Notes under the pieces: generated by a model | Database searches by the model: none | What the model was told of the DNA's origin: nothing | What the model saw: the letters and a program-made list of their open reading frames with translations, nothing else | Source: SAR324 cluster bacterium | GTDB lineage: Bacteria; SAR324; JACQKK01 | DNA: 5,395 bases | Assembly: GCA_027296185.1 (NCBI GenBank) | Contig: JAPUJL010000275.1 | Location: 1 to 5,395 of the forward strand | Direction of reading: 5' to 3' | Translations under genes and position numbers: made by a program | Part shown: positions 659 to 5,186 of the stretch, one piece after another | Numbering within the stretch: the stretch's first letter is position 1 | How the letters are laid out: each line of letters begins with the position of its first letter

Positions 659-2265
659 CTGTCATCGAATCCCAGATCAAGCCGCGCTCCGCCGAGTTCC
701 AGGCCAACCGCCGCCATCACGAGGAGGAGGTGGCCCTGCTGCGCGAGCGGCAGGAGCAGGTGCGCCAGGGAGGCGGCGAGCGAGCCATGCAGCGGCACCG
801 GGGGCGCGGCAAGCTGCCGGCGCGGGAGCGCATCGCAGCGCTGGTGGATCCCGGCGCACCCTTCCTGGAGCTCTCCCCGCTCGCCGCCTGGGAGCTGTAC
901 GAGGGCAGCGCGCCCAGCGCGGGCGTGGTCACGGGCATCGGCCGGGTCGAGGGGCGCGAGGTGGTCATCGTAGCCAACGACGCCACGGTGAAGGGGGGCA
1001 CCTACTTCCCCATGACCGTGAAGAAACACCTGCGGGCCCAGGAGATCGCCACGGAAAACGGCCTGCCGTGCATCTACCTGGTGGATTCGGGCGGAGCCAA
1101 CCTCCCCTACTGGACGGATGTGTTTCCCGACCGGGAGCACTTCGGGCGCATCTTTTTCAACCAGGCCCAGATGTCCAGCAAGGGCATTCCTCAAATCGCG
1201 GTGGTGATGGGCAGTTGCACCGCCGGGGGCACCTACGTGCCGGCCCTGGCCGACGAGAGCGTCATCGTCAAGGGCACCGGCACCATCTTTCTCGGCGGTC
1301 CGCCCCTGGTGAAGGCCGCGACGGGCGAGGAGGTGAGCGCCGAGGAGCTGGGCGGGGCGGAGGTGCATGCCTTCCGCTCCGGGGTGGTCGACCATTACGC
1401 CCTTGACGATCCCGATGCGCTGCGGATAACCCGTGAAATCGTCGCCCATCTCAATTCCGGCCCGAAGCAGCCCCTGGAGCGCGCCGCGCCCGAGCCGCCC
1501 TTGTACGATCCGGAGGAGCTGCTGGGCGTGCTGCCCACGGACACCCGCACCCCCTACGAGGTCCACGAGGTGATCTGCCGGCTGGTGGACGGCAGCCGCC
1601 TGCACGAGTTCAAGACCCACTACGGAAAGGAGTTGGTCTGCGGGTTCGCCCACATCGAGGGCTATCCGGTGGGAATCCTGGCCAACAACGGCATCCTATT
1701 CAGCGAAAGCGCGATCAAGGGCGCCCATTTCATCCAGCTGGCCGCTCAGCGCCAAATTCCGCTGATTTTCCTGCAGAACATCACCGGATTCATGGTGGGA
1801 CGCGAGTACGAAACCCGCGGTATCGCCAAGGACGGGGCGAAGCTGGTGACAGCGGTCTCCACCTGTGGGGTGCCGCGGTTCACCCTGATCGTCGGCGGCT
1901 CCTTCGGTGCCGGGAACTATGGCATGTGCGGCCGGGCCTATTCCCCGCGCCTGCTGTGGATGTGGCCCAACGCCCGCATCTCGGTGATGGGCGGAGAGCA
2001 GGCGGCCAGCGTGCTGGCCACGGTGCGCCAGGACAACCGCGCCGCCCAGGGCCAGCCGCTCATGGACGAGCAGGAATTGAGCGATTTCAAGCAGCCGATC
2101 CTGGACGCCTACGAGCGGGAGGGCTCCCCCTACTTCAGCACCGCGCACCTGTGGGACGACGGCATTCTCCACCCCGCCGATTCGCGGCAGGCGCTTGCGC
2201 TGGGGATCGCCGCGTCGCTCAACCGCCCGTTCGAAAAGACCCCATTCGGGGTCTTCCGCATGTGA
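655..2265 (+). CDS. liuB: Methylcrotonyl-CoA carboxylase, carboxyltransferase (beta) subunit
   Basis: The 536-residue product matches the usual ~535 residues of the MCC beta subunit. In the alpha6-beta6 holoenzyme this subunit moves the carboxyl group from biotin to 3-methylcrotonyl-CoA, giving 3-methylglutaconyl-CoA in leucine breakdown in the cytoplasm. The N-terminal carboxyltransferase domain (about 20-270) shows GRGKLPARERI (50-60), NDATVKGGTYFP (108-119), VDSGGANLP (143-151), the oxyanion-hole segment MGSCTAGG (185-192) and FLGGPPLVKAATGEE (212-226). The C-terminal domain (about 285-530) shows LANNGILFSESA (342-353), QNITGFMVGREYE (374-386), GGSFGAGNYGMCGRAY (414-429) and WPNARISVMGGEQAA (437-451). 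It ends in FGVFRM, as MCC beta subunits do. These segments separate it from propionyl-CoA carboxylase and AccD. Geranyl-CoA carboxylase beta (AtuC) is a close relative and is not fully excluded. One odd point is Tyr-Trp at 152-153, where the MCC beta sequences I remember have Arg-Gln. The biotin-carrying alpha subunit and other liu genes are absent nearby. Confidence 0.93.
   Translation: MTVIESQIKPRSAEFQANRRHHEEEVALLRERQEQVRQGGGERAMQRHRGRGKLPARERIAALVDPGAPFLELSPLAAWELYEGSAPSAGVVTGIGRVEGREVVIVANDATVKGGTYFPMTVKKHLRAQEIATENGLPCIYLVDSGGANLPYWTDVFPDREHFGRIFFNQAQMSSKGIPQIAVVMGSCTAGGTYVPALADESVIVKGTGTIFLGGPPLVKAATGEEVSAEELGGAEVHAFRSGVVDHYALDDPDALRITREIVAHLNSGPKQPLERAAPEPPLYDPEELLGVLPTDTRTPYEVHEVICRLVDGSRLHEFKTHYGKELVCGFAHIEGYPVGILANNGILFSESAIKGAHFIQLAAQRQIPLIFLQNITGFMVGREYETRGIAKDGAKLVTAVSTCGVPRFTLIVGGSFGAGNYGMCGRAYSPRLLWMWPNARISVMGGEQAASVLATVRQDNRAAQGQPLMDEQELSDFKQPILDAYEREGSPYFSTAHLWDDGILHPADSRQALALGIAASLNRPFEKTPFGVFRM
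2262..2265 (+). promoter_or_regulatory. GTGA stop/start overlap (carboxylase gene to outer-membrane fusion gene)
   Basis: The final codons of the carboxylase gene read ATG TGA, and the GTG inside them (2262-2264) opens the frame of the following gene. This start keeps the whole signal peptide with its Arg cluster. The next in-frame start codons (GTG at 2391, ATG at 2403) fall inside the hydrophobic core and would destroy it. The frame is also open upstream through the carboxylase gene, but that stretch is a shadow. A GGGGT run (2248-2252), about nine bases before the GTG, could act as a weak ribosome-binding site. Confidence 0.7.

Positions 2266-5186: not shown

Follow-up and report, generated by a model that had tools for sequence, protein, structure and literature searches.

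An M1 peptidase domain without its zinc-binding residues precedes a predicted Omp85 barrel in a SAR324 fusion protein

The fusion gene and its parts

We analysed a stretch of 5,395 nucleotides (the window) from a SAR324 cluster bacterium (assembly GCA_027296185.1, contig JAPUJL010000275.1), in which one gene encodes a fusion of a peptidase domain of the M1 family with a putative outer-membrane barrel of the Omp85 type (Table 1). A single polypeptide carries an M1 domain without zinc-binding residues, followed by the predicted Omp85 barrel. The signal peptide, the M1 and immunoglobulin-like (Ig) folds and the 16-stranded barrel of this protein are predicted.

The first-pass annotation of this DNA had read the two halves as one chain, and this chain proved to be real: the frame is continuous, the M1 part is matched and the fusion was found in 41 of the 52 genomes of the SAR324 phylum. 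A joining or assembly error as the origin of the fusion was ruled out because of this recurrence. Between residues 60 and 640, where an M1 body had been expected, Pfam Peptidase_M1 matched at 390-546 and a structure match was also obtained. The Omp85 loop-6 motif (R864-G865-Y866) and the C-terminal Phe974 were present as described. The chain had also been said to lack POTRA domains, and no POTRA match was detected in the window protein at E values up to 10; neither patatin nor POTRA was found in its Pfam scan.

Table 1. Coordinates of the fusion gene, its parts and the upstream gene in the window
Feature	Position	Strand	Basis or remark
Fusion gene	2262..5186	+	GTG start (uncertain), TGA stop; 974 aa; translation
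N-terminal stretch, putative signal peptide RRRRIAAIVAVSVSAAMLGALPAGAQA	2262..2432	+	by eye from translation
M1 N-terminal beta domain, residues 69-299	2466..3158	+	predicted model and structure match
Pseudo-catalytic M1 domain, residues 300-552	3159..3917	+	Pfam Peptidase_M1 at 390-546; structure match
RAIAR (393-397) at the HEXXH zinc-motif position	3438..3452	+	alignments
Phe416 at the third zinc ligand (Glu) position	3507..3509	+	alignments
Segment YGADAPTHTLTDWLAPRYREHYFE with WxxP motif (W443, P446, H451, E454)	3552..3623	+	aligned rows
His487 at the M1 catalytic Tyr position	3720..3722	+	alignment column
Ig-like beta sandwich, residues 553-650, joins barrel	3918..4211	+	predicted model
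Omp85 barrel, 16 predicted strands (655-969), terminal Phe974	4224..5183	+	model, structure match
RGYP (864-867), Omp85 loop-6 motif	4851..4862	+	translation
Carboxyltransferase gene, upstream, overlaps fusion start (ATGTGA)	610..2265	+	Pfam Carboxyl_trans 486.7 bits

Loss of the zinc site and distribution of the fusion

Alignment with M1 enzymes placed RAIAR (393-397) of the fusion protein at the zinc motif HEXXH and Phe416 at the Glu that serves as third ligand; the M1 fold is present and the HEXXH-X18-E zinc site is absent. The column of the catalytic Tyr holds His487, and the GxMEN-type segment is missing. In an alignment of 90 proteins, HEXXH..E was kept in none of 42 fusions from the SAR324 phylum (7 from family f1, 28 from f2 and 7 from f3), in 22 of 25 fusions from outside the phylum, in 15 of 15 barrel-less M1+Ig relatives and in 8 of 8 ordinary M1 proteins. 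The 42 phylum genes represent 40 of the 41 gene-bearing genomes; this set excludes the G039 copy along with two partial ones from G024, and the G003 copy is cut by the contig end. An earlier count over 66 phylum rows, redundant entries included, likewise gave 0 with HEXXH..E. The domain had first been taken for a catalytic-type M1 domain, and this had to be given up for the window and for the phylum: judged by its sequence, the peptidase domain of the SAR324 fusion is dead as an M1 enzyme. An ordinary active peptidase was rejected because the zinc site is lost. At least 3 zinc-site changes appear on a quick tree, which has long branches for f3, G310, G229, G379 and G105, and we are unsure of the position of f3 and of the number of losses on it.

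The dead M1 domain is under purifying selection in f2. Across nine close f2 pairs the ratio of non-synonymous to synonymous substitution rates (dN/dS) of this domain was 0.086-0.278, and every domain stayed below 1 in all nine, with a top value of 0.608 for an Ig domain; these estimates cover f2 alone, and some dS values were saturated (up to 2.2, in the barrel). Beside the lost site a W[LIVM]xP motif (residues 443-446 in the window protein) was found in the aligned segment of 42/42 phylum rows and in 0/25 outside fusions, 0/15 barrel-less relatives and 0/8 ordinary M1 proteins. The pattern was loosened post hoc, after the stricter [DN]W[LIV].P had matched 31 of the 42.

How often the fusion occurs, a survey proposed with the first annotation, was determined with f1+f2 and f3 profiles run against all 52 phylum genomes; the fusion was detected in 7/10 genomes of f1, 27/31 of f2, 7/10 of f3 and 0/1 of f4, and in 12 of the 15 genomes with a completeness of 90% or more and a contamination of 5% or less. 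Fusions also occur outside the phylum. The count given for outside genomes, at least 24 of 331, is a lower bound from the part of the listed matches that was examined. A contig scan with two motifs returned 9 loci and is uninformative on other phyla because its motifs came from the f1 alignment. Two protein searches with an f1 query row returned f1 proteins, as the first query row supplies the search words, plus one barrel-less M1 protein in one of them; the search with an f2 query row returned 30 proteins.

The SAR324 fusions are collinear with the zinc-site-bearing fusions (hhalign over 846 and 837 columns), and the barrels alone also matched between the two groups (E 5e-19 and 1.3e-6). Ten outside genes that are absent from profile A4 reach its C-terminal end (979-984 of 984); one of them, from G105, matches only from position 487. 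Barrel searches with single sequences missed G151, G289 and G094 and were weak for G271 and G129. When the structure of an outside relative was compared, the best 50 matches were M1 chains only, with no barrel chain; for the barrel of this relative we therefore rely on predicted strands together with profile comparison. In one outside genome, G109, three genes are consecutive on the same strand (L145:5530-11367): a zinc-site fusion, a gene for a 296-aa protein that matches nothing in Pfam, and a barrel-less gene of the M1+Ig type. This genome carries another fusion as well (L141).

The barrel features were not equally shared. R864, G865 and P867 were invariant among 15 sequences, and RG[YF] was present within the last 170 residues in 34 of 35 f1+f2 proteins, none of 7 from f3 and 11 of 25 outside genes. 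Pfam Omp85 (PF01103) scored 28.0-38.7 bits in the four f1/f2 relatives scanned and gave no match in the three f3 proteins scanned; among the 25 outside fusions, 2 scored above its cut-off. The Ser and Trp ends seen in f2 fusions (e.g. L030, L050) are unusual for an outer-membrane barrel.

Known systems, proposed role and alternatives

M1 aminopeptidases (PepN, tricorn factor F3, ERAP1) share with the fusion an N-terminal beta domain, a thermolysin-like body and an Ig-like sandwich. Ordinary M1 aminopeptidases have a helical C-terminal domain, whereas the fusion has a barrel in its place and lacks HEXXH..E, the GxMEN-type motif and the catalytic Tyr. TAF2, a subunit of TFIID, is non-catalytic. 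It resembles the fusion in using the M1 fold as a scaffold, and the family profile matches PDB 6hqa (E 3.4e-5), but TAF2 is eukaryotic and nuclear and has no membrane domain. Where TamA and BamA have POTRA repeats, the fusion has M1 and Ig domains. PlpD, too, has an enzyme-type fold ahead of a 16-stranded Omp85 barrel in a single chain; according to the available portion of a 2024 study (PMC11116518) it has a patatin domain with a Ser-Asp dyad and one POTRA, whereas the fusion has M1 and Ig domains, a dead site and no POTRA.

Heinz and Lithgow 2014 (PMC4104836) distinguished ten subfamilies of the Omp85 superfamily; section 10 of that paper describes none with M1, and no word starting with 'peptidase' occurs in the main text. 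Their WD40 and 'Metallo' subfamilies, as presented there, likewise join a barrel to a non-POTRA N-terminal body, but this body is a propeller or, in 'Metallo', a PF00149 domain instead of M1. In agreement with the first-pass annotation, which knew of no characterised member, none of the papers listed in literature searches describes an M1-Omp85 protein by title or abstract opening; an account elsewhere is possible. Databases name the relatives 'BamA/TamA family outer membrane protein' or 'M1 family aminopeptidase', so automatic annotation had already noticed each half. We regard the fusion as an Omp85 protein whose N-terminal architecture is undescribed, with the SAR324 clade as its pseudoenzyme form.

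Two further Omp85 frames were observed. A 971-aa frame in G225 (L104:1010-3922) combines Peptidase_MA_2 (31.7 bits, just below the cut-off; HELTH), PD40 repeats and an Omp85 barrel, and is a second peptidase-type body on such a barrel. A frame of 1182 aa in G367 (L103:1075-4620) has CBM9, a DUF4097-like match (below cut-off), POTRA and Omp85, which is an unusual Omp85 architecture.

Omp85 proteins build or cross outer membranes, and their capture of clients is known largely through POTRA domains. M1 enzymes grip peptides in a deep cleft. The role that we tentatively prefer for the fusion is that of an outer-membrane scaffold, in which the dead cleft binds periplasmic polypeptides and hands them to the barrel. 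POTRA domains, N-terminal in Omp85 proteins, are periplasmic, and the patatin domain of PlpD is placed in the same compartment (PMC11116518, available portion); the M1 body would therefore be expected beneath the barrel, facing the periplasm at the POTRA position of BamA/TamA. The ancestor may have been an outer-membrane-tethered aminopeptidase, a role that the zinc-site-bearing relatives would still have. In SAR324 catalysis would have been lost, and the cleft with the adjoining W[LIVM]xP segment may have turned into a putative binding site that stands in for POTRA and holds periplasmic polypeptides for insertion or passage through the barrel. Outer-membrane proteins, lipoproteins or imported peptides are candidate substrates. 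It is possible, though doubtful, that M1-Omp85 is as a whole an undescribed Omp85 subfamily of several phyla, in which the SAR324 pseudoenzyme replaces POTRA and its dead cleft delivers clients to an insertase or translocase of the outer membrane, in a phylum where TamB was not detected.

The first-pass annotation had offered a peptide or protein receptor, an assembly factor or a device displaying the M1 domain. The first two are favoured over display of a working enzyme because the site is dead in all 42 phylum genes. An unlikely alternative is a peptide or nutrient pore, with the barrel as channel and the M1 body as a periplasmic binding cap (a trimming enzyme in other phyla). The zinc site of the barrel-less relatives and of most outside fusions fits such a peptide-handling past, but the solved barrels among the structure matches of the window model were TamA and BamA, and no peptide-transporter gene was found next to the phylum fusion genes scanned.

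Export of the M1 body through the barrel, as a surface receptor or adhesin, is improbable. Export was first proposed for chains in which a body precedes an Omp85 barrel, as in PlpD (PMC4104836, section 10), and the idea of display leans on PlpD. PMC11116518, however, reports a periplasmic patatin domain for PlpD, and a folded M1 body of ~580 residues would be unlikely to fit through a 16-stranded barrel. Still harder to credit is a hydrolase that works through another, undescribed active site, with the zinc chemistry taken over by K489 and the W443/P446/H451/E454 segment. H451, E454 and K489 are invariant in 35/35 f1+f2 rows, but f3 retains W[LIVM]xP and lacks RE(or D)H..E, K489 is common to 22 outside fusions as well, and the segment is modelled with low confidence. 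That the gene is decaying, with its zinc site gone by drift, is barely credible: it is absent from some genomes and f3 is strongly diverged, but dN/dS is below 1 throughout the f2 pairs (f2 only), the copies listed have open frames, and G013 and G024 hold more than one copy.

Several observations weigh against the scaffold role. Of the 52 genomes, 11 lack the gene, including three that are 97-98% complete (G041-G043), and the zinc site is lost also in 3 outside fusions. Family f3 has eroded far: it had no Pfam match as M1 (3/3 scanned) and none in PDB sequence searches, and was accepted as M1 only through profile comparison (hhalign probability 100, E 1.7e-44, 854 columns). In the window protein the PF01103 match at 898-967 (E 7e-4) stayed below the Pfam cut-off (19.7 bits vs 24). 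Prediction of the whole chain gave the M1, Ig and barrel folds named earlier, at middling confidence (pTM 0.52), and residues 433-488, which contain the new motif, had pLDDT <50. The C-terminal residue was not Phe in 21 of 28 f2 genes (19 Ser, 2 Trp). Neighbouring genes were alike within a family but for the most part differed from one family to another, giving no firm partner, and AsmA (PF05170) was found in 14 of 52 phylum genomes.

With an M1 body at the place of POTRA, whose zinc site most sampled lineages retain and one phylum has lost throughout, the fusions offer a natural experiment on whether the barrel needs a peptidase or a mere peptide-binding cleft. The SAR324 form is a likely further M1 pseudoenzyme of bacteria and also a candidate for an additional factor in outer-membrane assembly or uptake.

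Genome context and neighbouring genes

TamB (PF04357) was detected in 0/52 phylum genomes by a search that was positive in 6/14 control genomes; given the AsmA-like proteins, a TAM-like module may nevertheless exist. POTRA matches were present in 52/52 phylum genomes, 3 to 9 in each. An Omp85 match was likewise found in every genome (51/52 over the cut-off), mostly on one frame of ~810-900 residues, and in the genome of the window a POTRA-bearing Omp85 is encoded apart from the fusion, at G000:C193.

When the adjoining genes were surveyed, agreement within families was confirmed, and no gene was common to all fusion loci examined. In f1 the carboxyltransferase gene lies upstream in the window, L022, L023, L024 and L006, and not in L026; L025 begins inside the gene. 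A CBS/CorC_HlyC gene was located directly upstream on the same strand in 5/7 f3 loci (L031, L033, L034, L036, L037) and in the outside genomes G151 and G289 (one genus; L093, L094, L151). It is the one neighbour shared across phyla, although none of the f1 and f2 loci examined has it; its adjacency to the fusion may reflect linkage or chance.

Two small frames lie at the start of the window. Positions 344-658 hold a gene for a small HNH nuclease (104 aa, PF14279 49.5 bits) that overlaps the carboxyltransferase frame at its start. The open frame at 15-287, close to the beginning of the contig, is rich in Lys, Ala and Pro, and we take it to resemble a histone H1-type tail.
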